Under the pieces are notes generated by a model, which searched no databases, was not told the origin of the DNA, and was given only the letters and a program-made list of their open reading frames with translations. Position numbers and translations under genes: made by a program. Source: Brucella daejeonensis (lineage in GTDB: Bacteria; Pseudomonadota; Alphaproteobacteria; Rhizobiales; Rhizobiaceae). From it: a DNA stretch of 64,000 nucleotides. How positions within the stretch are numbered: the stretch's first letter is position 1; every line of letters starts with the position of its first letter. Below are positions 34,571 through 54,721 of this stretch, one piece after another. Location of the stretch: assembly GCF_014199265.1 (NCBI RefSeq), contig NZ_JACIJG010000003.1, positions 1 through 64,000 of the forward strand. Direction: 5' to 3'.

Positions 34571-34645
34571 GCGGGTGTAGCTCAGGGGTAGAGCACAACC
34601 TTGCCAAGGTTGGGGTCGAGGGTTCGAATCCCTTCGCCCGCTCCA
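34571..34645 (+). tRNA. tRNA-Gly (anticodon GCC)
   Basis: Acceptor GCGGGTG pairs CGCCCGC; D-arm GCTCAGGGGTAGAGC; anticodon loop CTTGCCAAG gives GCC; T-arm GGGTTCGAATCCC; discriminator T followed by encoded CCA. It reads glycine GGC/GGU codons. Confidence 0.97.
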
Positions 34646-39303: not shown

Positions 39304-39445
39304 CTGGAGAGCAGCGCTATCAACCTTCTTTTGCCCCTCATATAATGCATGTTGACATTTGTCGATCATTTGCCGAATATTGTCAAACGACTCTGGGAGA
39401 AGTCGAAACTGGCGACGGGTCAATGTCGCTCGCGGAGGAAATGCA

Positions 39446-40924
39446 TTGGAATTTCTGCTGGAAGTGGAAGGGCTCAAAAAGTCCTTTGGCGGCGTTGCCG
39501 CCTTGCGGGACGGGCGGCTGCAATTGCGGGCAGGTTCGGTGCACGCGCTGTGCGGAGGCAATGGCGCAGGCAAATCCACTTTCCTGAAAATCCTGATGGG
39601 AATTCACGCGCGTGACGGCGGGCATATCCGGCGGCGCGGAAAAGAGGTCACCTATTCCAGCCCGGCAGAAGCGCTTCAGGCGGGCATCGCGATCATCGAA
39701 CAGGAATTAAGCCCCGTTCCCCATATGACAGTCGCGGAAAATATCTATCTGGGCAGGGAACCGCTTCGCCGCTTCGGCGGCATCGACTTCAAGACGATGA
39801 ACAGGAATGCGCAGCGGCTGCTGGACCAGCTTGAGTTCAAAATCCGCGCCAACCAGTTCATGATGAACTTGTCGGTCGCCCAGATTCAGCTTGTGGAAAT
39901 TGCCAAGGCGCTGAGCCACGATGCCGAGGTCATTTTCATGGATGAACCGACCTCGGCAATCGGGGAAAAGGAAGCGCAGCAACTCTTCGCCGCCATCCAG
40001 AACCTGAGAGCAAGCGGAAAAGGCATCGTCTATGTCTCGCACCGGCTGTCGGAAATCTTCCAGATCGCCGATTCATACACCGTGTTTCGCGACGGCAGCT
40101 ATATCGACAGCGGCGAACTCGGGAATATCACACGCGCCGAACTCATCCACATGATCGTCGGGCGGGAACTCGGCGAAGAATATATCAAGACAAACGCTCC
40201 AACCGAAATCCCCGGCTTGCAGGTTTCGGGACTAAGCGCTCCCGGCAAGATCGCCGATATATCCTTCACGGCCCATAAGGGCGAGATTCTCGGCATCTAC
40301 GGATTGATGGGATCGGGGCGGTCGGAAATTTTCAATTGTCTTTTCGGCCTCGATAAAGCCTCGAGCGGCACCATCCACCTCGAAGGCGAACCTGTCTCCG
40401 TGCGCCGCCCGTCGGATGCGATGGCGCTTGGACTGGCCTTCGTGACGGAAGACCGCAAGCTCACCGGTCTTAATCTCGACGAGAGCGTCCGCAACAATAT
40501 CTGTCTGGCGAGCCTTCCCGAAATGAGCCCCCGCTTCGCCATGAAGCGGCGTGAGGAAATGTCCGCCAGCAAGCAAATGATCGAACGGTTCAGGATCAAG
40601 GTCGCCACGGACACGATGGCTGTCTCCGGTCTCTCCGGCGGCAACCAGCAAAAAGTCGTTCTGGGCAAGTGGTTCCTGCGGAAGCCGAAGGTCCTGCTGC
40701 TCGATGAACCGACACGCGGTGTCGATGTTGGCGCAAAGCAGGAAATTTACCGCATCATCTGCGAATTCGCTGCCGAAGGCGGCACCGTCGTCATGATCTC
40801 TTCGGAAATCGATGAAGTTCTCGGCATGTCGGACCGGATCATGGTCATGCGCAGCGGACAGTCGGCAGGCATCTATCGCAGGCAGGAAGCGGACGCGCAG
40901 TCGCTCGTGCATCTTTCCACATGA
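39446..40924 (+). CDS. Ribose-type sugar ABC transporter ATP-binding protein (RbsA-like)
   Basis: A 492-residue tandem ABC ATPase. Domain 1: Walker A GGNGAGKST, LSVAQIQLVEIAKAL, IFMDEPTSAI. Domain 2: GLMGSGRSEIF, LSGGNQQKVVLGKWF, LLLDEPTRGVDVGAKQEIY. A TTG start at 39446 is proposed because GGAGG lies 8 bases upstream and LEFLLEVEGLKKSFGG is the normal N-terminus; no in-frame ATG fits. It is first gene of the sugar-alcohol operon. The intergenic space before the permease is filled with two palindromic repeats. Confidence 0.9.
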   Translation: MEFLLEVEGLKKSFGGVAALRDGRLQLRAGSVHALCGGNGAGKSTFLKILMGIHARDGGHIRRRGKEVTYSSPAEALQAGIAIIEQELSPVPHMTVAENIYLGREPLRRFGGIDFKTMNRNAQRLLDQLEFKIRANQFMMNLSVAQIQLVEIAKALSHDAEVIFMDEPTSAIGEKEAQQLFAAIQNLRASGKGIVYVSHRLSEIFQIADSYTVFRDGSYIDSGELGNITRAELIHMIVGRELGEEYIKTNAPTEIPGLQVSGLSAPGKIADISFTAHKGEILGIYGLMGSGRSEIFNCLFGLDKASSGTIHLEGEPVSVRRPSDAMALGLAFVTEDRKLTGLNLDESVRNNICLASLPEMSPRFAMKRREEMSASKQMIERFRIKVATDTMAVSGLSGGNQQKVVLGKWFLRKPKVLLLDEPTRGVDVGAKQEIYRIICEFAAEGGTVVMISSEIDEVLGMSDRIMVMRSGQSAGIYRRQEADAQSLVHLST

Positions 40925-41004
40925 GAAACGGCCCGAAGGCAATGCGTTTCGTTCGAGACCAGGGAGATAGGACCGCAAGCGCCCGCAAAAAGGCGGAACC
41001 GGTT

Positions 41005-41082
41005 CTAGTGGATTGAATTTGACGTTTGAATCCCGACTGAATGAGATGCTGTTTCAAACGTCAAATTCGAAAAATCCACTAG
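41005..41082. repeat. 78-bp CTAG-bounded palindromic element
   Basis: It runs from CTAGTGGATTGAATTTGACG to CGAAAAATCCACTAG, with arms GAATTTGACGTTTGAA / TTTCAAACGTCAAATTC. A near-perfect palindrome bounded by CTAG on both sides. Confidence 0.85.
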
Positions 41083-41095
41083 ATGCATGAAGTTG

Positions 41096-41170
41096 CTAGT
41101 GGTCTTTCGATTCCGACATTTGCTCGGCAACTATATCAGAGGGATGCAAATGTCGGAATCAGACCACTAG
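41096..41170. repeat. 75-bp CTAG-bounded palindromic element, intact copy
   Basis: It runs from CTAGTGGTCTTTCGATTCCG to CGGAATCAGACCACTAG with inner arms CCGACATTTGC / GCAAATGTCGG. It is the same element as 90-166, which abuts the IS end. It ends 13 bases before the permease start. Confidence 0.85.
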
Positions 41171-41183
41171 AGAGGTAAAGCAA

Positions 41184-42188
41184 GTGTCCACCACCGAAAA
41201 CAATTCATCGACGAACTGGTTTGGCTCCGAACGCCGCAGACTGGTCATCCAGGAATACGGAATCTTCATAGCCTTCCTGCTGCTGGCCACGATCCTCTCA
41301 TTCTCCAACCAGTATTTCCTGACGGCGGGCAATATTTCCAACGTCCTCTTGCAGACCTCGATCAACGGCATCCTCGCCATCGGCATGACCTTCGTCATCC
41401 TGACGCGCGGCATTGATCTTTCGGTCGGCTCGGTCGTCGCCCTGGCCGGCATCGTCAGCGCAAGTTTCGCCACCACATCCGCAACCGCGGGCATTGCGGG
41501 CGCGCCCTACTCGCCATTCGTGGCCATTCCCGTCGGGCTGCTGGTCGGCATCTGCTGCGGTGCATTGGTCGGCATGATCGTATCGCGCTTTTCGGTCCCG
41601 GCCTTTGTCGCGACGCTGGGTATGCTGTCGGCCGCACGCGGACTGACGCTCATTTATGGCGGCGGCAAGCCGGTGCCCGCGCTCATCCCGGATTTTCGCT
41701 GGATCGGAACCGGTAACATTGTGGGCATCCCGGTCCCCGTCGTCCTGCTCGCAATCGTGTTTCTGGTGTCCTGGTGGGTGCTCAACCGGTCGCGGTTCGG
41801 GCGCTACATCTATGCCGTCGGGGGCAATCCCCATGCGGCCAATACATCGGGCATCAACATTTCACGGGTCCGGTTTTCGGTCTATGTCATCTCGGGCGGT
41901 CTTGCCGGTCTTGCAGGCATGATCCTTTCAGCACGCACCGGCTCGGCTCTCCCACAAGCAGGTATCAGCTACGAACTCGACGCCATCGCGGCGGTCGTCA
42001 TCGGCGGCACCAGTCTTTCCGGCGGTGTGGGCCGCATTACCGGAACGCTCATCGGCGCACTCATCATCGGCGTCATGAACAACGGCCTCGATCTGATGGG
42101 CATCCAGTCCTACTACCAGCAGGTCCTGAAGGGCGCGCTGATCGTCGGCGCGGTCATGCTCGACCAGAAACGCAATCAGGATGCCTGA
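41184..42188 (+). CDS. Sugar ABC transporter permease (RbsC-like)
   Basis: A 334-residue inner-membrane permease with about ten helices. ILAIGMTFVILTRGIDLSVGSVVALAG, RFSVPAFVATLGMLSAARGLT, GNPHAANTSGIN and VVIGGTSLSGGVGRITGTLIGALIIGV are RbsC-family signatures. It uses a GTG start with GAGAGGTAAAGC upstream. One permease gene implies a homodimeric channel with the upstream ATPase. Confidence 0.92.
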   Translation: MSTTENNSSTNWFGSERRRLVIQEYGIFIAFLLLATILSFSNQYFLTAGNISNVLLQTSINGILAIGMTFVILTRGIDLSVGSVVALAGIVSASFATTSATAGIAGAPYSPFVAIPVGLLVGICCGALVGMIVSRFSVPAFVATLGMLSAARGLTLIYGGGKPVPALIPDFRWIGTGNIVGIPVPVVLLAIVFLVSWWVLNRSRFGRYIYAVGGNPHAANTSGINISRVRFSVYVISGGLAGLAGMILSARTGSALPQAGISYELDAIAAVVIGGTSLSGGVGRITGTLIGALIIGVMNNGLDLMGIQSYYQQVLKGALIVGAVMLDQKRNQDA

Positions 42189-42262: not shown

Positions 42263-43252
42263 ATGAAAAGACTCTTGATCACACTGGCAGCGGCATCCGC
42301 ACTGTTCGCCACGTCTTCACTCGCCCAGGAAGCGAAGCTCAAGATTGGCGCCGCGCCCTATGGATTGAACGCCGAGTTCATGCAGATTTGGTCGGAAGCT
42401 CTCAAGCAGCACCCGGCAGTAAAGAACGGCGAGGTTGAACTGACCGTGTTTGACGGCCGCTACGATGCGCTGGTCCAGCAAGAGCAGTTCAACACGATGA
42501 TCACCCAGAAATTCGATGCGATCATCTTCGTTCCCATCGATATCGAAGCCGGCGCCACCGCCGTTCAGGCGGCAAGCGATGCCGGTATCCCTGTTGTCGG
42601 CTCGAATACCCGCGTCAACTCCGATCTGCTTGCGGCCTATGTCGGCTCGGACGACACGGTTTCAGGCTACATGGAAGCCAAGACCGTGCTCGACAAGATC
42701 GGCTGCAAGGGCAACGTGGTTATTCTTGAAGGGCCTATCGGCCAGTCCGCGCAGATTTCCCGTCTGGAGGGTAACAAGAAGGCGCTTGCCGAATGCCCGG
42801 ATGTGAAGGTCCTCGAAGATCAGACCGCAAACTGGTCCCGTGCCGAAGCCCAGACACTGATGGAGAACTGGCTGACGGCCCATCCCGGTCAGATCAACGG
42901 CGTGATCGGCCAGAACGATGAAATGGCACTTGGCGCAATCGAAGCGATCAAAGCCGCCAATCTCAAGGTGGACGACTTCGCAATCGCCGGGATCGATGGC
43001 ATCACCGATGCTCTCCATGCGGTCAAGGATGGTACGATGACCTCCATTCTGCAGGACGCCAACGCTCAGGCGCAAGGCGCTCTCGACCTTGCGATTTTCC
43101 ATGCCAGAAAGGGCGACTACAAGCCGCAGGCCGACATCTGGGCGCAGTACCCGGACATGCCGTTCAATGACGGCAAGGACAAGAACTACAATGTTCCATG
43201 GACGCCTGTAACCGCCGAGAACGTCGACAAGCTCCTGGAAAGCCGCAAGTAA
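42263..43252 (+). CDS. Sugar/polyol ABC transporter substrate-binding protein (RbsB-like)
   Basis: A 329-residue periplasmic binding protein of the peripla_BP_4 group. The Sec signal MKRLLITLAAASALFATSSLAQE ends at LAQ. FDAIIFVPIDIEAGATAVQAASDAGIPVVGSNTRV and NGVIGQNDEMALGAIEAIKAA ... IAGIDGITDAL are typical. GGAGGAGATAACA gives a very strong ribosome-binding site. The ligand is inferred to be a polyol from the neighbours. A stable hairpin follows the stop. Confidence 0.92.
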   Translation: MKRLLITLAAASALFATSSLAQEAKLKIGAAPYGLNAEFMQIWSEALKQHPAVKNGEVELTVFDGRYDALVQQEQFNTMITQKFDAIIFVPIDIEAGATAVQAASDAGIPVVGSNTRVNSDLLAAYVGSDDTVSGYMEAKTVLDKIGCKGNVVILEGPIGQSAQISRLEGNKKALAECPDVKVLEDQTANWSRAEAQTLMENWLTAHPGQINGVIGQNDEMALGAIEAIKAANLKVDDFAIAGIDGITDALHAVKDGTMTSILQDANAQAQGALDLAIFHARKGDYKPQADIWAQYPDMPFNDGKDKNYNVPWTPVTAENVDKLLESRK

Positions 43253-43328: not shown

Positions 43329-44102
43329 ATGTCCGATCAAGCTCCCCAAATTGACCTGAATTTCCCGCTTTCTGGAAAAGTGGCCGTCGTGACCGGAGGC
43401 GCTTCCGGCATTGGCGCCGCAATATCCAAGGCTTTCGTTGCCAAGGGAGCCAAAGTCGCGGTACTCGACATCAGCGCCGACATGGCGAAAGCCAAAGCCG
43501 AGGAGCTTGGCGAAAACGCCAGACCGTTCGTCTGCGATGTGTCCAGCCAGCATTCGGTTAATGAAGCCATCGCCGCCGCCGTCGCCCAATTCGGCTCCAT
43601 CGACATTGCCGTCAACAGCGCGGGCGTCGTCTATCTGGCTCCAGCGGAAGATATTTCGCTCGATTCCTGGGGCAAGACGATCGATATCAATCTCAAAGGC
43701 AGCTTTCTTGTCACGCAGGCTGTCGGCCGCGCCATGATCGCCGCGGGCAAAGGCGGCAAGATCATCAATCTCGCATCCCAGGCCGGAACGGTCGCCATCG
43801 AAGAACACGTCGCCTATTGTGCATCGAAATTCGGCGTCATCGGCATGTCGAAGACCTTCGCGGCAGAATGGGGCAAATATGGCATCTGCGTCAACACGCT
43901 TTCTCCGACCATCGTGCTCACCGAACTTGGTAAAAAGGCCTGGGCCGGAGAAAAGGGTGAGGCGGCGAGGAAGCGCATCCCCGCCGGCCGCTTTGCCTAC
44001 CCGGAAGAGATTGCGGCAGCCGCGGTGTTTCTCGCATCTGCTGGAGCCGATATGATTACAGGCGCCGATCTTCTGATCGATGGCGGCTATACCATTCTTT
44101 GA
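43329..44102 (+). CDS. SDR dehydrogenase, probable D-threitol (tetritol) dehydrogenase
   Basis: A 257-residue classical short-chain dehydrogenase. VVTGGASGIGAAISKAF is the NAD site, followed by NSAG, INLASQAGTVAIEEHVAYCASKFGV (Ser, Tyr-x3-Lys catalytic set) and NTLSPTIVLTELGKKAW. The last stretch and the overall sequence recall D-threitol dehydrogenase described in mycobacteria. Position between a polyol-type importer and Dha-type kinases supports oxidation of a tetritol or other polyol to a ketose. The precise substrate is inference. Confidence 0.88.
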   Translation: MSDQAPQIDLNFPLSGKVAVVTGGASGIGAAISKAFVAKGAKVAVLDISADMAKAKAEELGENARPFVCDVSSQHSVNEAIAAAVAQFGSIDIAVNSAGVVYLAPAEDISLDSWGKTIDINLKGSFLVTQAVGRAMIAAGKGGKIINLASQAGTVAIEEHVAYCASKFGVIGMSKTFAAEWGKYGICVNTLSPTIVLTELGKKAWAGEKGEAARKRIPAGRFAYPEEIAAAAVFLASAGADMITGADLLIDGGYTIL

Positions 44103-44206: not shown

Positions 44207-45199
44207 ATGCAGCGCTTCATCAACAATCCGGACGAAGTCGTTGAGGACACGGTCAAGGGTTTTGTCAAAGCTCATTCCGACATCGTTCGGCTTGCCGAAA
44301 ACCCGCGCGTGATTGCCGCTACAGGCGCGCCGATTGCAGGCAAGGTCGGCGTCGTTACGGGCGGCGGCTCGGGGCACGAACCGGCGTTCATCGGCTATAC
44401 CGGCAAAAACATGCTCGATGCCGTCGCGGTTGGTGAACTGTTCTCCTCGCCAACCGCCAAGAGCTTCTACGACGCCATCCGCGAGGCCAACGGCGGCAAG
44501 GGCGTTATCGTTCTCTACGGCAACTATGCCGGTGACAACATGAACGTGAAGATGGCGATCAAGCTTGCCGCCAAGGACGGTATCGAAGTGGCGACGGTCG
44601 TCGCGAACGACGATGTCTGCTCCGCTCCGGCCGACGAGCGCGAGAAACGTCGTGGCGTGGCGGGCGAAATCTTCATGTGGAAGGCAGGCGGCGCGAAGGC
44701 TGCAACAGGCGCCACACTCGATGAGGTTCGCGCGACGGCGCAAAAAGCCATCGACAATTGTCGCTCGATCGGCGTCGGACTTGGACCGTGCACCCTGCCT
44801 GCCGTGGGACATCCCAATTTCGAGATCGCACCGGGAACGATGGAAGTCGGCATCGGCCATCATGGCGAGCCGGGCGTGCGGGTCGAACCGCTCAAATCGG
44901 CAGCCGAGGTGGCCAGAGATATGTGTCACATCGTGCTCGACGATCATGGGCTTGCCGAAGGCACGGAAGTGGCCGTCCTCATTTCCGGCCTGGGCGCAAC
45001 GCCGCTCAACGAGCTTTATATTCTCAACGATACGATCGAGTCCGAAATCAGTGGGCGCGGGCTGAAAATTCACCGCACCTATATCGGCAATTATTTCACC
45101 TCGCTTGAAATGGTCGGAGCCACGCTGACGGTGATGGCGCTTGACGATGAGCTGAAGGAACTGCTCGATGTCGAAGTAAAGTGCACCGCCATTCTGTAA
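44207..45199 (+). CDS. DhaK-type ketose kinase subunit
   Basis: A 330-residue DhaK subunit that binds dihydroxyacetone or a related ketose covalently. VGVVTGGGSGHEPAFIGYTG forms the substrate site, and the hemiaminal histidine lies in GIGHHGEPG (His 219). The start MQRFINNPDEVVEDTVKGFV is typical. Its partner is the DhaL gene 12 bases downstream. In this context the substrate may be a tetrulose (erythrulose) rather than dihydroxyacetone, as for the erythrulose kinases of tetritol pathways; this is inference. Confidence 0.93.
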   Translation: MQRFINNPDEVVEDTVKGFVKAHSDIVRLAENPRVIAATGAPIAGKVGVVTGGGSGHEPAFIGYTGKNMLDAVAVGELFSSPTAKSFYDAIREANGGKGVIVLYGNYAGDNMNVKMAIKLAAKDGIEVATVVANDDVCSAPADEREKRRGVAGEIFMWKAGGAKAATGATLDEVRATAQKAIDNCRSIGVGLGPCTLPAVGHPNFEIAPGTMEVGIGHHGEPGVRVEPLKSAAEVARDMCHIVLDDHGLAEGTEVAVLISGLGATPLNELYILNDTIESEISGRGLKIHRTYIGNYFTSLEMVGATLTVMALDDELKELLDVEVKCTAIL

Positions 45200-45211: not shown

Positions 45212-45853
45212 GTGCAAACACTCAATAACGCGAAAGCCGGAGATATCGTACTGGCGATGGCGGAGCGCATTGTCGAAAACCGCGCCTATCTCAGCGAAAT
45301 CGACGGGAAGATCGGCGACGGCGATCACGGCGTCAACATGGCCAAGGGCTTCAACATGGCCGCCGAACGCCTGAAGGGGCAAAACGAAACCCTTTCCGCA
45401 TCCCTCGATACGCTCGGAACCGTGCTCATGACCGAGATCGGCGGCTCGATGGGACCGCTTTACGGAGTGATGTTTACCGAATTTGCCGAGAAAATCGACG
45501 GCGTGGACAATATCGACCCCGCCGCCTTCAGCCATATGCTTCATGCCGGACTGGAAGGCATTCAGGCAATCGGTTCCGCCAAGGTGGGCGACAAGACCCT
45601 GCTGGACACGCTTGTGCCCGCAGTCGAAGCCTTCGATGAGGCCAACGCCAGTGGAAAGTCCTTTGGAGAAGCGCTTCAGGCTCTTATTGCCGCGGCTGAA
45701 AAAGGCCGCGATTCCACAATCGACCTGGTTGCGAAGATCGGCCGCGCCAGCCGCCTTGGCGAGCGTTCGCTGGGCGTTCTCGATGCAGGGGCGACCTCCT
45801 GCGCGATCATTCTGACAGAACTTGCCAACGGCGCACGCGAACGCCTGCAATAG
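45212..45853 (+). CDS. DhaL-type nucleotide-binding kinase subunit (first copy)
   Basis: A 213-residue all-helical subunit carrying ADP/ATP and Mg. The Asp cluster is IDGKIGDGDHGVNMAKG, with GGSMGPLYG and TLLDTLVPAVEAF and the C-terminal RASRLGERSLGVLDAGATSC. GTG start with GGAAGAGAAC upstream. No DhaM/PTS gene is seen, so whether ATP or a distant PTS supplies the phosphate is open. Confidence 0.9.
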   Translation: MQTLNNAKAGDIVLAMAERIVENRAYLSEIDGKIGDGDHGVNMAKGFNMAAERLKGQNETLSASLDTLGTVLMTEIGGSMGPLYGVMFTEFAEKIDGVDNIDPAAFSHMLHAGLEGIQAIGSAKVGDKTLLDTLVPAVEAFDEANASGKSFGEALQALIAAAEKGRDSTIDLVAKIGRASRLGERSLGVLDAGATSCAIILTELANGARERLQ

Positions 45854-45860
45854 ATTTCCG

Positions 45861-45882
45861 AAAGGCCCGCATCGCAGGGCCT
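45861..45882 (+). terminator. Weak hairpin after first dhaL
   Basis: Arms AAGGCCC / GGGCCTT around GCATCGCA, followed by CCGGTTC; partial terminator at best. Confidence 0.5.
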
Positions 45883-45903
45883 TCCGGTTCTCCGACACTC
45901 AGA

Positions 45904-45943
45904 GCATGATCCCCAAAAGCGGGAGCCGTTTTGGGGATCATGC
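45904..45943. repeat. Perfect Rhizobiales REP-type palindrome
   Basis: Arms GCATGATCCCCAAAA (45904-45918) and TTTTGGGGATCATGC (45929-45943) are exact inverted repeats, the common rhizobial intergenic module. It lies upstream of the SorC-DhaK gene and could also serve as a hairpin insulating it from the first dhaL. Confidence 0.75.
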
Positions 45944-46043
45944 CCAGACAAAGAGTTAGCGCCAGCCAGACGCAAACAAAAACATTGTATTGCGGGGCCA
46001 GCCGGTCGATAGAAGAAAGACCAGGGAGACAAGCGCGAACGAG

Positions 46044-48128
46044 ATGGCGTCACCAGCAAAAACAACCGCAGGCAAAGCCGGACAGGCAGAACCGGCCGAA
46101 GGCATTCCGCTGCGATATGGTGACGATCCCTATGTCTGGGCGTGCTGGCTTTATTATGAAGACGGGCGCACACAGGGCGAAATCGCCGAAATCATGGGCA
46201 TATCGCGAGCAACCGTAAACAGTTATCTCGCGGATGCGCGCAGCCGTGGCATCGTCAATATTTCCATCGAACCGGCACGTCTCAGTTCCCTTGCCATCGC
46301 GCAGGAACTCAAACGCCATTTCGGGCTGAGCGACTGCCTTGTGGTGCCGAACGATGATGGTTCGCGAGCGCTTATCGACCGGCTTGGAACAGCCGCCGCG
46401 CAGGCGATTTCCAGGCTCCTGAAATCAGGAGATACGCTGGCCGTCGCCTGGGGACGTACTGTTCTCTCCATTGCCGAGAATACCCGTATATCCAACCTGC
46501 AGGACGTGACCATCGTGCAGGCGACGGGCGGCACACGCGCCAGTTTCAGCTATACGCCCGAACTTTGCGCAGCAGCCATGGCACGGGCGACGAACGCCCG
46601 TCTCGTCAACATCGCGGCCCCCGCCATCGTATCCAGCCCCGAATTGAAGACGGCCATTCTCGACGAACCGATCATCGCGGAGCAATTCGAAGCGCTGAAC
46701 CACGCCAACAAGGCGCTGTTCGGGATTTCCTCGCTGCGCCCGAACTCGACGATCCATACGAGCGGCTTCTTTGAAAATGTTTCGATACAGGAATATCTGG
46801 CCAAGAATGCCGTCGGTGTCGTGGCGGGGCGTTTCATCGACGCTTACGGACAACCCGTGTCAGGCCCCCTCGATGACAGGACCATCGGCATAACGCTCGA
46901 CATGCTGCATAAAATCTCGATGCGCATCGCAGTCGCCGGTGGCTTCGACAAGGTTCCGGCAATTCTCGCCGCTTTGCGCGGTGGCTATATCAATGTGCTG
47001 GTTACCGATGCCGCAACAGGCCGGGGCATCCTCAATGCCGATGGCGTGACCGGGATCGACAGCAAGCTGTCCCAGAAACTGCGCCCCGAGCCGGCGGCAA
47101 ACATATCCAGCCATTATCGCACCCACATCAAGAAGTTCCTGAACAGCCCCGACGACGTGGTAGAGGAAATGCTCGACGGCGCCACCAAGGCCCATCAAGC
47201 CTACCTGACCCCGATCAACGGGGCGAAACGCGCCCTTGTCGCGCGTTGCGGTCCCCGTCCGGGCAAGGTGGGGCTGGTGATCGGCGGCGGTTCGGGCCAC
47301 GAGCCGTGCTTTCTGGGCTATGTGGGCAAAGGGCTTGCCGATGCGGTGGCCATCGGCAATGTCTTTTCCTCCCCTCCGCCCGCCCCCATTTTGGAATGCG
47401 CGAAGGCTGCTTCCGGCGGCGAAGGCATCCTCTTCGTCTATGGCAACTATGTCGGCGATGTCATGAATTTCGAAATGGCGGCCGAAATGGCGCAGGAAGC
47501 CGACATACCGACACGGACAGTGTTGACGACCGACGACATCTCCTCCTCTCCGGTAGAGGACCGGGACGGACGCCGCGGCGTCGCCGGAAACTTCTTCATC
47601 TTCAAGGTAGCAGGTGCGGCCTGCGATCGCGGTCTGTCGCTGGAAGCGTGCGAAGCGGTGACACGCAAGGCCAACCGGCGCACCTATACGATGGGCGTCG
47701 CCCTCGAACCCTGTTCCCTGCCGCAGACGCGGCGGCACAATTTCGAGATCGGGGCCGAAGAAATGGAAATCGGCATGGGTATTCATGGCGAGCGCGGGGT
47801 CGTCCGCGAAAAAATGATGCCCGCGGATGCCATCGTCGATCACATCATGGACCGGATTTTTGCCGAAATGAATGCCTCGCCCGGAGACAGGGTTGCGGTG
47901 CTCGTCAACTCCTTCGGCTCGACCCCACTGATGGAGCTTTACATTCTGTTCCGGCGGGTCGAACAGCGGCTGAGCGCCAAGCAGATAAGGATCGAAGCCA
48001 ACTGGGTCGGGCATTACTGCACATCGCTTGATATGAATGGAGCGTCCATCTCCATCATGCATCTCGATCAGGAACTGTCCGATCTTCTGTCACACCCTTG
48101 CGATACCGCTTTTCTTCGGGTCAACTGA
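46044..48128 (+). CDS. SorC-family regulator fused to a DhaK kinase domain
   Basis: A 694-residue fusion. Residues about 30-75 form an HTH (DGRTQGEIAEIMGISRATVNSYLADAR). About 80-345 is the SorC/DeoR-type sugar-binding domain (GDTLAVAWGRTVLSIAENT, VAGRFIDAYGQPV, GILNADGVT). About 365-694 is a complete DhaK domain with LVIGGGSGHEPCFLGYVG and the covalent-substrate His in GMGIHGERG (about 581). All DhaK active-site marks remain, so this is not a dead domain by eye. A ketose may thus be bound or phosphorylated on the same chain that binds DNA. ATG 46044 is the first plausible start; its Shine-Dalgarno is weak. Confidence 0.88.
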   Translation: MASPAKTTAGKAGQAEPAEGIPLRYGDDPYVWACWLYYEDGRTQGEIAEIMGISRATVNSYLADARSRGIVNISIEPARLSSLAIAQELKRHFGLSDCLVVPNDDGSRALIDRLGTAAAQAISRLLKSGDTLAVAWGRTVLSIAENTRISNLQDVTIVQATGGTRASFSYTPELCAAAMARATNARLVNIAAPAIVSSPELKTAILDEPIIAEQFEALNHANKALFGISSLRPNSTIHTSGFFENVSIQEYLAKNAVGVVAGRFIDAYGQPVSGPLDDRTIGITLDMLHKISMRIAVAGGFDKVPAILAALRGGYINVLVTDAATGRGILNADGVTGIDSKLSQKLRPEPAANISSHYRTHIKKFLNSPDDVVEEMLDGATKAHQAYLTPINGAKRALVARCGPRPGKVGLVIGGGSGHEPCFLGYVGKGLADAVAIGNVFSSPPPAPILECAKAASGGEGILFVYGNYVGDVMNFEMAAEMAQEADIPTRTVLTTDDISSSPVEDRDGRRGVAGNFFIFKVAGAACDRGLSLEACEAVTRKANRRTYTMGVALEPCSLPQTRRHNFEIGAEEMEIGMGIHGERGVVREKMMPADAIVDHIMDRIFAEMNASPGDRVAVLVNSFGSTPLMELYILFRRVEQRLSAKQIRIEANWVGHYCTSLDMNGASISIMHLDQELSDLLSHPCDTAFLRVN

Positions 48129-48179
48129 ACTATGCCGCCCCGGCGGCTTCATGAATTCCAGATCGTCTGGGAGGTAAAA

Positions 48180-48827
48180 ATGCAGGAAACTGCAGCGCGT
48201 CGCCTTAGCCGAATGTTCCAACTCATCGCCTTTTCCATCAAGGAGGAAAAGGAACGCCTGTCCGACCTCGACGGCGCCATCGGCGATGCAGACCACGGCA
48301 TTACCATGGCGCTCGGCTTTTCGGCTGTAACCGGCGCGCTTGCCAAGGCCGATCTGGAACAGACCCTGCCTTCTGAAATCTTCGCCATCGCCGCTTCGGC
48401 TTTCCTGGATGCCGTGGGCGCGTCGACAGGTCCGTTATACGCTTCTGCATTTCGCAGCGCCTCCAAAGCGTTGAAAGCGCATGAGACGCTGGACACCGAA
48501 GGACAGGTTGCCATCATCGAGGCGATGACGCAGGGCATTCAGGACCGCGGAAAAGGACAGCGCGGCGACAAGACCATGCTCGATGCCTGGATACCGGCTG
48601 CGGAAGCGGCGGAAAAAGCGCGGTCGTCCGGTCTTTCCGGCTCGCAAATGTGGGCCCGGATACTCGATGCGGCGGAAAAGGGCGCGGATTCGACCCGCTC
48701 CATGGTCGCAACCAGAGGCCGCGCCGCGCGACTGGGAGAGCGTTCGCTCGGGCATATCGATCCGGGGGCGGCTTCCGCCATTATAATCCTGAGTGCCATG
48801 CGGGATAGCCTTGCCGATGCCGGCTAG
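48180..48827 (+). CDS. DhaL-type nucleotide-binding kinase subunit (second copy)
   Basis: A 215-residue DhaL, 51 bases after the fusion gene and probably its partner. The Asp cluster is LDGAIGDADHGITMALG (ADADHG-like, as in PTS-type DhaL), then GASTGPLYASAF, GDKTMLDAWIPAAEAA and RAARLGERSLGHIDPGA. GGGAGGTAAAA precedes the ATG; a start 16 codons upstream is rejected. Divergence from the first DhaL suggests an old duplication rather than a recent one. Confidence 0.9.
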   Translation: MQETAARRLSRMFQLIAFSIKEEKERLSDLDGAIGDADHGITMALGFSAVTGALAKADLEQTLPSEIFAIAASAFLDAVGASTGPLYASAFRSASKALKAHETLDTEGQVAIIEAMTQGIQDRGKGQRGDKTMLDAWIPAAEAAEKARSSGLSGSQMWARILDAAEKGADSTRSMVATRGRAARLGERSLGHIDPGAASAIIILSAMRDSLADAG

Positions 48828-48956: not shown

Positions 48957-50588
48957 TTAAGCTTTATTGGCCGACAAGGCGTGTTTTCCAGCCGACAGAA
49001 TTTCCGGAGCAGCACCGCGACTTTGCTTGATTTCTATGTGATAGCGCATGAAATCCACAGCCGGCAACGGCTTGGAAAACAGCCACCCTTGTGCGAAATG
49101 CACGCCACGCTCCTTAAGAAAGGCCGCCTGTTCTTCCGTCTCGACACCTTCCGCCACTGAAAACAGACCAAGCGCATGGGCAAGTTCAATGATGTGCAGG
49201 ATGACGGAACTCGTCGCGGCCTGCGTTCCGATCGTATCGACGAAGGATTTGTCTATCTTGAGCGCGTCCAGCGGCAGTGTTTGCAGGTATTGCAAGCTGG
49301 AATAGCCGGTGCCGAAATCGTCTATGGCAATGGAATGGCCCGCCTTGCGGGCTCTTTCAAGCGTGTGGCTTGCGGAATTGACGTCGAGAAACCCCCGCTC
49401 GGTCGCCTCCAGCCAGATCTGCTCCTTGCGAATATCGGTTCGGTCCAGTTTTTCCGCCACCAGATCGACGATCCTGCCCGATTGAATGTCCGAAGAACAC
49501 ACATTGATCGCGATGTGAAGGGTCCGGTCCCCTGCCAGGAACGAGCTCATATCGGCAATGACCGCGTCGATGACGAGATCCGTAATCGGCGCGATCTGCC
49601 CTGTTTCTTCGGCCAGCGGTATGAACAGGTCAGGCCTGACCAGAGAGCCGTCGGGCCGCTTCCAGCGTACCAGTGCTTCAGCGCCGACGCATATTCCCGT
49701 CTTCAGATCGACGATAGGCTGGTAATGAACCATGAACTCGCGTTTGCTGATCGCCAGATCGAGTTCCGCCCGAAGCGACAGGCGGCGCTTCGAAAGCCAG
49801 AAGACCGCGCAAAGCAGAAGCAGCGACAACAGTGCTCCGGCGGGCAGGAAAACGATCAATTCCTGCCACAGGCGGGGAACAAGTCTGGCACGCGGTTCTA
49901 TTACCACCGCCGACAGACCGTCACTTTGAGCGACGCCCGCCAATGAGGAAGCATAAATACCGCTCTTCTCGTTGGCGGCAAGCGATGCGACCAGATCACG
50001 GTCCGGATTGTTGCGCATACTGATGATCTCGCCACGATCGTTCAGCAGGGCGATTGCGATTTCGTCATCGATAACGAGATCGATGAAATAGGATGGCGTT
50101 ATGAGAACGTTATAACTTCCCATTGCCACTGCCGTCGTCTGTTGGCCGAGACTGGCATCCGGCGTTACGCGCAAGACGACACCCAAGCCGTCCGGGGTAG
50201 TGAAGTCGGCCGGCAGGCCTTCGACATGCTGCGTTGTCACGCCCCATGAAGTACATTTCAGAAGACCATTTTCGAAATAGCCGATTTCTTCCACGGCCGG
50301 GGTATTGATCGTCTGGCTGCGCATCAGCGCGATGTGCTCTCCCGAACAGGGAGGCAAGTCCGCATGTATCATCACCTCCATCACCTGCCGGGCATCCTGA
50401 AAGGTCGTCCTTGCGCGGAAAACTGCTCGCTCAGCGATCTGCGAAAGAAGAGACAGTTCTTTCTGACTTGCAAGGTGATAGGAGACCCAGCTCATCGTAG
50501 CCATGGGAACCACGGTCCCGACCAGCGCGAGCAACAAACCGATAATGACTACTCTCCCTCGCCGGGAAGATATTATCTGGTTTGCCAT
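48957..50588 (-). CDS. CSS-motif sensor EAL phosphodiesterase (cyclic-di-GMP)
   Basis: A 543-residue membrane protein. A helix at about 12-36, a periplasmic CSS domain (about 40-235) with Cys in LPPCSGEHIAL and KCTSWG (CTS in place of CSS), a second helix at about 240-262, then an EAL domain (about 275-530). Catalytic marks GAEALVRWKRPDG, IAINVCSSDIQ, WLEATERG, IDDFGTGYSSL, LKIDKSFV and VAEGVE are intact, so c-di-GMP hydrolysis is expected. CSS-EAL enzymes are redox-controlled through the periplasmic cysteine pair. It is convergent with the sugar-alcohol locus. Confidence 0.93.
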   Translation of the reverse strand: MANQIISSRRGRVVIIGLLLALVGTVVPMATMSWVSYHLASQKELSLLSQIAERAVFRARTTFQDARQVMEVMIHADLPPCSGEHIALMRSQTINTPAVEEIGYFENGLLKCTSWGVTTQHVEGLPADFTTPDGLGVVLRVTPDASLGQQTTAVAMGSYNVLITPSYFIDLVIDDEIAIALLNDRGEIISMRNNPDRDLVASLAANEKSGIYASSLAGVAQSDGLSAVVIEPRARLVPRLWQELIVFLPAGALLSLLLLCAVFWLSKRRLSLRAELDLAISKREFMVHYQPIVDLKTGICVGAEALVRWKRPDGSLVRPDLFIPLAEETGQIAPITDLVIDAVIADMSSFLAGDRTLHIAINVCSSDIQSGRIVDLVAEKLDRTDIRKEQIWLEATERGFLDVNSASHTLERARKAGHSIAIDDFGTGYSSLQYLQTLPLDALKIDKSFVDTIGTQAATSSVILHIIELAHALGLFSVAEGVETEEQAAFLKERGVHFAQGWLFSKPLPAVDFMRYHIEIKQSRGAAPEILSAGKHALSANKA

Positions 50589-51547: not shown

Positions 51548-52501
51548 ATGTATTTTTTTAACAGGAAAGTGGCGGTGTCCCTGGCGACAGCGCTCGGGCT
51601 CGTTCTCGGTGCGGCTCAGGCGCAGGCCGAAGAATTCGTGAATATTCTGACGGGCGGCACGAGCGGCGTTTATTATCCTCTTGGCGTTGCCATGGAGAAG
51701 ATTTACTCGGACATCCCCGATGTGCGTCCGTCGGTTCAGGCGACCAAAGCGTCGATTGAAAACATCAACCTGATCAACAGTGGACGTGGAGAAGTAGCGT
51801 TCACGCTCGGGGATTCCCTGCGCAATGCGTATGAAGGCAACGAGGCGGCGGGTTTCAAGAAGAAGCTCACCAATCTCAGCACTCTGGCCGCGATCTATCC
51901 GAACTATGTCCAGATCGTTGCCTCGAAGGAATCCGGCATCAAGACGCTGGCCGACCTGAAAGGGAAGCGGCTTTCCGTCGGAGCGCCCAAATCCGGCACC
52001 GAATTGAATGCGCGAACCATACTTGAAGCCGCCGGGCTTTCCTACGACGACCTCGGCAAGATCGAATATCTGCCCTTCGCGGAATCGGTCGAACTGATGA
52101 AGAACCGGCAACTGGATGCCACCCTGCAATCTTCGGGCCTTGGCGTCGCCTCGCTGCGCGATCTTGCCAATTCGGTGGATATCAATGTGGTTGAGGTTCC
52201 GGCAGAGGTGATCGAGAAAATCGGCTCTCCCTATCAGGTCAACACGATCCCCGCCAACACCTATAGCGGGCAGGATAAGGACGTCGTGACCGCTTCGGTG
52301 ATCAATTATCTGATCGTGCGTCCGGACATGGACGAAGAGCTGGTCTATCAGATGACCAAGCGCCTGTTTGAGAATCTCGATCAGCTGGCTGCCGCTCATG
52401 CATCGGCCAAGGCGATCAAGCTCGACAAGAGCACGATCGTTTCACCGGTTCCGATCCATCCCGGCGCAATGCGTTACTATAAGGAAAAGGGCATCGAATA
52501 A
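51548..52501 (+). CDS. TAXI-family TRAP transporter solute-binding protein
   Basis: A 317-residue periplasmic protein. A Sec signal (about 1-27, AAQAQAEE) is followed by the TAXI pattern FVNILTGGTSGVYYPLGVAMEKIYS, GRGEVAFTLGDSLRNAYEG and GLSYDDLGKIEYLPFAESVELMKNRQLDATL. GAGGAGGAAAC precedes the ATG. It delivers its ligand (for known members often glutamate or other carboxylates) to the fused permease downstream. A strong hairpin follows. Confidence 0.92.
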   Translation: MYFFNRKVAVSLATALGLVLGAAQAQAEEFVNILTGGTSGVYYPLGVAMEKIYSDIPDVRPSVQATKASIENINLINSGRGEVAFTLGDSLRNAYEGNEAAGFKKKLTNLSTLAAIYPNYVQIVASKESGIKTLADLKGKRLSVGAPKSGTELNARTILEAAGLSYDDLGKIEYLPFAESVELMKNRQLDATLQSSGLGVASLRDLANSVDINVVEVPAEVIEKIGSPYQVNTIPANTYSGQDKDVVTASVINYLIVRPDMDEELVYQMTKRLFENLDQLAAAHASAKAIKLDKSTIVSPVPIHPGAMRYYKEKGIE

Positions 52502-52547
52502 TCTCCGGCATGTGCCGAGAGATTTGTTGCCTGTCCACACGGCAAAC

Positions 52548-52570
52548 GCCCGGGTAGCACCTACCCGGGC
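52548..52570 (+). promoter_or_regulatory. Intercistronic hairpin after TAXI binding-protein gene
   Basis: Perfect 10-bp arms GCCCGGGTAG / CTACCCGGGC around CAC; only GCTCTTCG follows, so not a full terminator. Confidence 0.75.
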
Positions 52571-52615
52571 GCTCTTCGATTTTTATCAGATGACTGACCC
52601 GACGAAAGTTCGTTT

Positions 52616-54721
52616 ATGAGTGAGAGCCAGAACTCCGCCGTAGAATCGGCTGAACATATCCCCGGCTGGGGCGCAGGTTATGGCGCCAGAATCCTGTTCG
52701 CCATAGCTGTGGCATTTTCCGTTTTCCAGCTTTGGACTTCAGCCTATTCGCCTTTGCCGAGCCAGGTCGTTCGCTCCGTTCATGTCGGCTTTCTTCTTCT
52801 GCTGCTGTTCGGCCTTTACGCCAATGCGTCGACGGCTTTCGCGAAGCGCGCCGTCTTCTGGTGCGCCGCTGTCATCGCTTTCGCGCTCAGTCTCTATCAC
52901 TGGTTCTTCTACGAAGATCTGGTGATCCGCGCTGGCGAGCCCAATACGCCGGATATCGTCATCGGCATTCTCGTTGTCGCGCTCGTCTTCTGGGCAGGCA
53001 AGAAGATGATGGGCTGGACCTTGCCGCTCATCTGCTTAATTTTTCTGGCTTACGGCCTGTTCGGCCAATATCTGCCGCACCCGTTCAATCATCGCGGCTA
53101 TGATTTCGAACAGGTGGTCGAGGTTCTCTTTCTTGGAACCGAGGGGATTTACGGCACGCCGATCTATGTTTCGTCGAGCTATATTTTCCTCTTCATCCTG
53201 TTCGGTGCGTTTCTCGAACGCGCAGGCATGATCCAGCTTTTCAACGACATTGCCATGGGAACGGTCGGCTCCTCACGCGGCGGACCTGCCAAGGTGTCGG
53301 TGATTTCGTCCGCCCTGATGGGAACGATCAATGGCTCCGGTGTCGCCAATGTTGTGACGACCGGCGCATTCACAATTCCGCTCATGAAGCGATCCGGCTT
53401 TCGTCCCGCCTTTGCCGGCGGTGTCGAGGCAGTGGCATCGATGGGCGGGCAGATCATGCCGCCCGTCATGGGCGCCGTGGCCTTCATCATGGCCGAAACG
53501 CTCGGCCTTCCCTATGTGGAAGTCGTCAAGGCCGCGATTGTTCCGGCAGTTCTCTATTTCATCACCGTCTTTGTAATGGTTGACCTGGAAGCGCGCCGCC
53601 TCAGGATGAAGGGCCTCGACAAGAACGAGATGCCAAGTGCGCTCGATGCCATCCGCAAGCGCTGGTTTCTCGTCCTGCCTCTTGCTGCTCTGGTCTGGCT
53701 CCTCTTCTCGGGCTATACGCCGCTTTTCGCGGGAACCGTCGGCCTCAGTCTCACCGCGCTGATCATTCTCGGCGTACCGATTTCCGGCAGCATGTCGCTG
53801 CCCTTGCGAGTTCTGTTCTGGGTCGCGCTCGGCGTGATGTCTGCTGCCGCGTTCGGCTCCACATTCAACGTCTTCGGCTATGCATTGCGCGGAATTACGC
53901 TGATCATCGTTCTCGTCGCTCTCCTCGTAGCGATAAACTTCGTGATACGCGGCGGACGCGAGACATTGAACCTTTGCCTGCAAAGCCTCGGAGAAGGCGC
54001 CAAGAATGCGCTGCCGGTGGGCGTCGCCTGCGCCCTTGTAGGCGTTATCATCGGGGTTCTGGCACTGACCGGCGCGGGTTCGACATTTGCCCGTGTGATC
54101 GTCACCGTTGGCGAAAATTCGCTGTTTTTCTCGCTGATCCTCACCATGCTTGCCTGCCTCGTGCTCGGCATGGGCATCCCGACGATCCCGAACTATATCA
54201 TCACATCCTCGATAGCCGGACCTGCGCTTCTCCATCTAGACGTGCCGCTTCTGGTTTCGCATATGTTCGTCTTCTATTTCGGTATCATGGCCGACCTTAC
54301 GCCGCCGGTCGCCCTTGCTGCTTTCGCCGCAGCACCCATCGCGCGGGAATCGGGCATGAAGATCGGGGTACAGGCAATCTCCATCGCGGTGGCGGGCTTT
54401 GCCGTGCCTTTCATGGCTGTCTATGAGCCGGTGATCATGCTTCAGGAAGGCGGCCCCCTGGCCGAAAAATTCGGTTTCTGGCTGGCCTTCGTCTATATGC
54501 TGATCAAAGCGCTGCTGAGCATTCTCTTGTGGGGGGCATCGGTTATCGGCCACCTGCGCACGCCGCTCAAGCTGTGGGAGCGCGCCTGGGCCTTTGCTGC
54601 CATAGCGCTCATGCTTGCCACCTATCCATACAGCGACGAGTTGGGCTTCGCTGCCTGCGCTGCCTTCCTTGCCTGGCATTTCTGGAAATCGCGTCAGTCC
54701 GCCGTCACGGCGGCGGACTGA
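52616..54721 (+). CDS. TRAP transporter fused permease (small + large subunit)
   Basis: A 701-residue protein with about 16-18 membrane helices: a four-helix DctQ-like part (about 25-130) joined to a DctM-like part. GGPAKVSVISSALMGTINGSGVANVVTTGAFTIPLMKRSGF, GGVEAVASMGGQIMPPVMGAVAFIMAE and MGIPTIPNYIITSSI are signature stretches of the 4TM/12TM fused family that works with TAXI proteins. Its stop overlaps the DUF1850 start (TGATG). Confidence 0.93.
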   Translation: MSESQNSAVESAEHIPGWGAGYGARILFAIAVAFSVFQLWTSAYSPLPSQVVRSVHVGFLLLLLFGLYANASTAFAKRAVFWCAAVIAFALSLYHWFFYEDLVIRAGEPNTPDIVIGILVVALVFWAGKKMMGWTLPLICLIFLAYGLFGQYLPHPFNHRGYDFEQVVEVLFLGTEGIYGTPIYVSSSYIFLFILFGAFLERAGMIQLFNDIAMGTVGSSRGGPAKVSVISSALMGTINGSGVANVVTTGAFTIPLMKRSGFRPAFAGGVEAVASMGGQIMPPVMGAVAFIMAETLGLPYVEVVKAAIVPAVLYFITVFVMVDLEARRLRMKGLDKNEMPSALDAIRKRWFLVLPLAALVWLLFSGYTPLFAGTVGLSLTALIILGVPISGSMSLPLRVLFWVALGVMSAAAFGSTFNVFGYALRGITLIIVLVALLVAINFVIRGGRETLNLCLQSLGEGAKNALPVGVACALVGVIIGVLALTGAGSTFARVIVTVGENSLFFSLILTMLACLVLGMGIPTIPNYIITSSIAGPALLHLDVPLLVSHMFVFYFGIMADLTPPVALAAFAAAPIARESGMKIGVQAISIAVAGFAVPFMAVYEPVIMLQEGGPLAEKFGFWLAFVYMLIKALLSILLWGASVIGHLRTPLKLWERAWAFAAIALMLATYPYSDELGFAACAAFLAWHFWKSRQSAVTAAD

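Follow-up and report, generated by a model that had tools for sequence, protein, structure and literature searches.

A SorC-type regulator fused to a DhaK kinase domain in a predicted C4-sugar operon of Brucella daejeonensis

Organization of the locus

The locus described here lies within a 64,000-nucleotide stretch of Brucella daejeonensis DNA, referred to below as the window. At its center is a frame (46044–48125 plus stop) that is open throughout, with no stop or frameshift between the segments encoding a regulator and a kinase domain. The fusion is a genuine single protein, as had been proposed in a preliminary description of this DNA, in which sensor and kinase were taken to be one molecule. 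The genes and elements of the module are as follows.

39352..39386, no strand assigned: operator-like element TTGACATTTGTCGATCATTTGCCGAATATTGTCAA, left palindrome plus right repeat
39446..40924, + strand: sugar ABC transporter ATPase (ribose type; ABC_tran, RbsA-like), first gene of the operon, with a TTG start inferred from orthologs
41184..42188, + strand: ABC transporter permease (BPD_transp_2)
42263..43252, + strand: ABC transporter substrate-binding protein (Peripla_BP_4), start at MKRLLITL
43329..44102, + strand: GolD/DthD-family dehydrogenase (D-threitol dehydrogenase type, SDR; NF005309, 412.8 bits against a cut-off of 286)
44207..45199, + strand: DhaK1, separate DhaK subunit (Dak1)
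45212..45853, + strand: DhaL1 (Dak2; TIGR02365 above cut-off)
46044..48128, + strand: fusion protein, SorC regulator plus DhaK, 694 aa
46137..46244, + strand: helix-turn-helix of the fusion, about residues 32–67
46287..47036, + strand: SorC sugar-binding (effector) domain, residues 82–331, with W136-G137-R138 and K303 invariant
47040..47126, + strand: linker, about residues 333–361, neither length nor sequence conserved, low pLDDT
47127..48125, + strand: DhaK domain, residues 362–694
47298, 47457 and 47784, + strand: catalytic codons of the fusion for His419, Asp472 and His581
48180..48827, + strand: DhaL2, putative dedicated ATP-binding partner gene (Dak2; TIGR02365, 189.8 bits against 138.3)

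The proposal of one chain with a SorC-type helix-turn-helix, a sugar-binding domain and a full DhaK is borne out by Pfam and by alignment with proteins of known structure. Specifically, Sugar-bind (PF04198) is matched at residues 82–331 (E = 1.9e-63) and Dak1 (PF02733) at residues 379–689 (E = 3.3e-117) of the same chain. Residues 32–331 align end to end with the DeoR (8r7y), LsrR and SorC proteins of known structure, and residues 362–689 can be aligned with E. coli DhaK. As judged from the sequence, the helix-turn-helix and a sugar-binding domain of about 250 aa place the regulator half in the DeoR subfamily of the SorC family. The GGGSGHEP motif and the covalent-substrate histidine are both retained, as had been stated: His419 corresponds to H56 of E. 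coli DhaK, Asp472 to D109, and His581 to H218, the histidine that carries the substrate covalently. The separate DhaK/DhaL pair nearby and the second DhaL were also correctly described; DhaL2 begins 51 bp past the fusion stop and keeps the GDADHG, GPLY and GDKT motifs.

Distribution and origin of the fusion

Full-length homologs of the fusion, 52–84% identical, are present in Rhizobiaceae, Brucella/Ochrobactrum, Mesorhizobium, Labrys, Aureimonas, Paracoccus, Gemmobacter and Tropicimonas. Rhizobium, Sinorhizobium and Roseibaca are among the other genera with full-length homologs. In samples of 385 and 399 genomes drawn at class and phylum level, matches of full-length grade were confined to the Alphaproteobacteria. 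We collected 71 fusion-bearing loci, 67 of which have flanks sufficient for neighbor counts. Across these comparisons, the fusion presents itself as an old, conserved architecture of the Alphaproteobacteria.

The expectation that annotated homologs might exist was correct. NCBI already applies the name 'bifunctional sugar-binding transcriptional regulator/dihydroxyacetone kinase subunit DhaK' to proteins of Sinorhizobium, Ensifer and Shinella, which belong to the same family and share the gene order DhaK-DhaL-fusion-DhaL. The annotation supplies a name only: we found no functional study of the fusion in the open-licence literature, where a subscription paper could have escaped us, and locus tags of S. 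meliloti genes had no match in open-licence papers. To that extent, the statement that no mechanism had been described for these homologs also stands. The architecture is already known, and the assignment to a C4-sugar operon, the conservation of the kinase residues and the operator-like element are new.

With respect to ancestry, a DhaK tree places the DhaK domains of the fusions together with unfused DhaKs of erythritol-type loci in one well-supported clade, to which DhaK1 (40% identical to the DhaK domain of the fusion) does not belong, as it falls in a separate clade. The fusions of two loci, L052 and L064, group with unfused DhaKs, and a single fusion clade is not rejected (p-AU 0.23). 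Both a single origin with later fission and two fusion events fit this tree. A third DhaK of the same B. daejeonensis genome (L038; contig C33, 10000–28000) shares one chain with a DhaL. Its locus includes an ABC importer and, as a gene of its own in convergent orientation, a SorC regulator of about 29% identity; this locus is an unfused analogue of the fusion.

The operon and its substrate class

The gene order among orthologs is ABC ATPase, permease, binding protein, SDR dehydrogenase, DhaK1, DhaL1, fusion and DhaL2, with DhaL2 preceding the fusion in some of them. Within the available flanks of the 67 loci, DhaL1 is a neighbor in 62, DhaK1 in 61 and DthD in 45. The ortholog of the dehydrogenase in Sinorhizobium sp. 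B11 is annotated as a D-threitol dehydrogenase. DerI (D-erythrulose-4-phosphate isomerase) adjoins the fusion module in L040, L042, L045–L048, L065, L106, L107 and L126, and a LerI-like TIM stands beside the fusion in L064. Unfused sisters of the fusion DhaK occur with LerI/DerI, several of them also with EryABC (L070, L071, L077 and others). In B. daejeonensis itself, an adjacent LerI-DerI pair lies behind ery-like genes on another contig. An ery-like operon with EryA-, EryB-, EryC- and EryD-like genes, a triosephosphate-isomerase-like gene and DerI (NF051858) is found at L172 (contig C6, 117000–136900).

From this gene content, the module appears to be a C4-sugar (threitol/erythrulose) operon, and its substrate is most likely an erythrulose enantiomer. 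Erythrulose had been named as one of the ketoses to consider, and the DthD-type SDR together with the DerI and LerI neighbors gives good support to substrates of this type. The module shares a DthD-type dehydrogenase, DhaK-family kinases and LerI/DerI isomerases with the tetritol catabolism of M. smegmatis (DthD, DerK, LerK, LerI, DerI) and with the ery loci of rhizobia and Brucella; we know of no kinase in those systems that is fused to a regulator. In the C4 sugar alcohol pathway, erythrulose is converted to erythrulose phosphates and these to erythrose-4-phosphate (PMC12780249, PMC10733421).

The kinase half and DhaL2

The equivalents of H56, D109 and H218 are invariant in all 71 fusions, and DhaL2 adjoins the fusion in 66 of the 67 loci. 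Because of this invariance and this adjacency, the DhaK half is likely to be a functional kinase, with slightly changed loops. The one exception with respect to DhaL2 is Aureimonas sp. Leaf427 (L108): its fusion retains the catalytic residues although no DhaL2 adjoins it, and both kinases there may depend on DhaL1.

In terms of substrate, Lys104 of E. coli DhaK is part of the canonical dihydroxyacetone site. The corresponding residue is Gly in 71/71 fusions and in 65/65 DhaK1 proteins, and Lys in a distant canonical set. A Gly at this position would fit a ketose larger than dihydroxyacetone. The fusion DhaK also scores 369 bits against the TIGR02363 equivalog model, below the cut-off of 406. 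In view of the Lys104 replacement and this score, the DhaK half is probably a DhaK-family ketose kinase, and a dihydroxyacetone kinase is improbable. Against TIGR02362, the model of the DhaQ co-activator, the domain reaches 202 bits, below the cut-off of 413.

Among positions conserved in other DhaKs (n = 69), four are relaxed in the fusions and five in DhaK1. Two of the four fusion-relaxed positions border the active site: Ser54, beside the catalytic His, is Ser in 109/109 other DhaKs and Thr, Ala or Ser in the fusions, and Pro221, which follows the HGE motif, is Arg in 18 of the 71 fusions, including the protein of the window. Judged by these substitutions, the active-site loops of the fusion DhaK are not quite standard.

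The regulator half

The fusion has the helix-turn-helix and sugar-binding domain common to the DeoR subfamily (B. subtilis DeoR, E. coli LsrR, Klebsiella SorC), from which it differs in its additional C-terminal DhaK. Stand-alone, DeoR-like SorC proteins are 43–47% identical to its SorC half. EryD was considered as the closest kin and rejected, EryD-type and other SorC neighbors being about 26–33% identical. In L080, L082 and L083, a stand-alone SorC gene, 43–44% identical and divergently oriented, lies beside operons of the DhaK1/DhaL1 type, and its product would be the unfused counterpart of the regulator half.

The signature residues of the SorC pocket, W136-G-R and K303, are kept in the fusion. 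The lysine of the LKGG stretch of DeoR, which we take to be the residue that forms a Schiff base with the effector, aligns with Thr161. With Thr161 at this position, the fusion is expected to bind its effector non-covalently, unlike DeoR. As for the nature of the effector, the phosphosugars that SorC effector domains bind come from the pathway under their control, and CggR, a member of the other subfamily of the SorC family, comes off its operator in response to FBP and also to DHAP, which DHA kinase produces (PMC11229326).

A candidate operator upstream of the operon

Alignment of 10 orthologous promoters revealed an operator-like consensus, TTGACATTTGTCGA-N8-CGAATATTGTCAA, in which 14 bases never vary and the right half that comes after them is conserved. 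In the window, the candidate overlaps -35 (TTGACA) and -10-like (AATATT) hexamers with a promoter match of 10/12. With up to 3 mismatches allowed, the 4.64-Mb genome contains no second such site, and a reversed-pattern control gives 0. The operator of B. subtilis DeoR, ATTGAACAAAATTTCAATTACCAATTTACATATGTTCAA, likewise consists of a left palindrome and a right repeat over the promoter (PMC11229326), and the candidate shares this layout, including the promoter overlap.

A matrix trained on the 10 loci was tested on 28 other fusion loci and on 23 controls without the fusion. In 20 of the 28 test loci, the best matrix site precedes a module gene by no more than 450 bp, and in 17 of these it scores above 8. 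Among the controls, the best scores are 14.5 and 10.1 (one related pair), with the others below 9; the weakest test matches (8–11) overlap this range, and 13 strong ones (15–41) are clear of it. In L052 and L064, which have no DhaK1 nearby, the candidate operator is directly upstream of the fusion gene. Several loci, among them L047, L050 and L065, yielded no site; in some of these the promoter region itself may be missing. From the co-occurrence of site and fusion, we infer that the fusion binds the 39352–39386 element.

The regulatory regions had originally been placed at 40925–41183 and 45854–46043, and both assignments gave way to the conserved element. We rejected 40925–41183 as an operator, as it contains two palindromes of ~80 bp, each with dozens of copies in the genome, and is replaced in the ortholog L040 by a spacer of about 45 nt. 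The palindromes, at 40990–41175, are bounded by CTAGTGG...CCACTAG, one mostly 98–100% conserved and the other about 88–95%; their copies are usually side by side and sometimes form alternating arrays of about 163 bp (e.g., C5:23541-24034, C9:78366-78695 and C13:9-357), and by these features the pair is a BIME-like paired repeat. The 45854–46043 region was likewise rejected, as it holds no match to the conserved element and a repeated palindrome instead. This palindrome, atgatccccaaaagcggg...ttttggggatcatg at 45904–45943 upstream of the fusion gene, recurs in similar form at about ten other places in the genome and resembles rhizobial intergenic palindromic elements.

A proposed mechanism and its alternatives

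Taken together, the evidence makes it on balance probable that the fusion is a SorC/DeoR autorepressor of a tetritol/ketotetrose operon, sensing a phosphorylated ketotetrose made by its own kinase half. Without substrate, the tetrameric SorC part would sit on 39352–39386 over the promoter and repress the operon. Imported threitol or erythrulose would give erythrulose, which DhaK1/DhaL1 and the fusion with DhaL2 would phosphorylate with ATP. Erythrulose phosphate, or a close downstream phosphosugar, would then enter the SorC pocket of the same or a neighboring chain and cause operator release, after which DerI would convert the product to erythrose-4-phosphate. One gene would encode both the sensor and the enzyme that makes its signal, which amounts to a product-sensing trigger enzyme, and the gain from fusion would lie in proximity and fixed stoichiometry. 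Trigger enzymes such as NadR, PutA and BirA combine in one polypeptide an enzyme and the repressor of its pathway. The fusion differs from these in having unrelated domains and a kinase predicted to require a separate ATP subunit (DhaL2), and both of its activities are predicted, from the domains and the candidate operator.

The preliminary description had instead suggested that substrate at the kinase site gates promoter binding. In this alternative, which we consider unlikely, DNA binding by the SorC part responds to ketose bound at the kinase site, to docked DhaL2 carrying ATP or ADP, or to both, much as in E. coli DhaK/DhaL-DhaR or Lactococcus DhaQ-DhaS but within one chain. Those systems resemble the fusion in that a DhaK-family protein is coupled to transcription of its own operon. 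DhaR and DhaS are separate proteins of unrelated regulator families; the fusion differs in being one chain with a SorC regulator. DhaK-family proteins are known as partners of regulators, and Foldseek searches with the fusion model returned, in addition to SorC-family matches, 4lrx, a complex of DhaR(N) with DhaK from E. coli, and 2iu4, the DhaQ co-activator, among the best structural matches. The near-constant adjacency of DhaL2 and the relaxation of positions 54 and 221, next to the active site, in fusions only also speak for such coupling. Against it, residues 340–361 of the variable linker have a pLDDT <50 and are predicted to be disordered, so that no conserved rigid path is visible; the conserved SorC pocket would be superfluous were the kinase site the only sensor; and the domain scores far higher as a DhaK than as a DhaQ co-activator. 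As stated, gating by kinase-site substrate is not supported. Product sensing by the SorC half appears the more economical reading, given this linker and a conserved pocket that binds phosphosugars in characterized relatives. An interface within the tetramer or with DhaL2 is possible, the model being of a single chain (pTM 0.60). We hold as doubtful a combined arrangement in which the kinase state (ketose on His581, DhaL2-ATP/ADP docked) sets operator affinity and the SorC pocket acts as a second, product input. If kinase-state gating were true, the promoter would read both pathway substrate and phosphorylation capacity.

It is decidedly improbable that the DhaK half has a purely sensory or structural role, or phosphorylates only very slowly, with flux passing through DhaK1/DhaL1 and DhaL2 serving a regulatory role. 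The second kinase pair in about 61/67 loci could carry all flux, the kinase activity of the fusion then being dispensable, and the relaxed Ser54 and Pro221 would agree with this. Nonetheless, the catalytic residues are invariant and the domain is otherwise constrained as in kinases, DhaL2 has intact motifs in 66/67 loci, and L052 and L064 have the fusion and DhaL2 but no DhaK1 nearby.

Very improbable is the reading that fusion merely secures co-expression of halves that act independently, with no gain from being one molecule. The flexible, unconserved linker, the unfused occurrence of the sister DhaK and the stand-alone SorC genes of L080, L082 and L083 would fit such independence, but the halves are joined in 71 loci of distant genera, although operons already give co-expression. 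Finally, a sequencing or assembly artefact or a chance fusion of frames, to which we assign a negligible probability and for which no supporting observation emerged, is excluded as the source because full-length homologs occur in many genera and dozens of independently sequenced species show the same architecture.

The fusion is a widespread arrangement in which a repressor is linked to an enzyme that uses or makes the compound it is predicted to sense. With a predicted operator, substrate class and partner subunit, it offers a compact test case for whether DhaK-family enzymes signal through substrate occupancy or through product, and it may lend itself to use in rhizobia as an element inducible by C4 sugars.

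Other features of the window

Beyond the module, the translations of the window suggest an EAL-type c-di-GMP phosphodiesterase-like protein at 48957–50588 and, at 51548–54721, a TRAP transporter of TAXI type, comprising its binding protein and fused permease. A tRNA-Gly (GCC) gene lies at 34571–34645.
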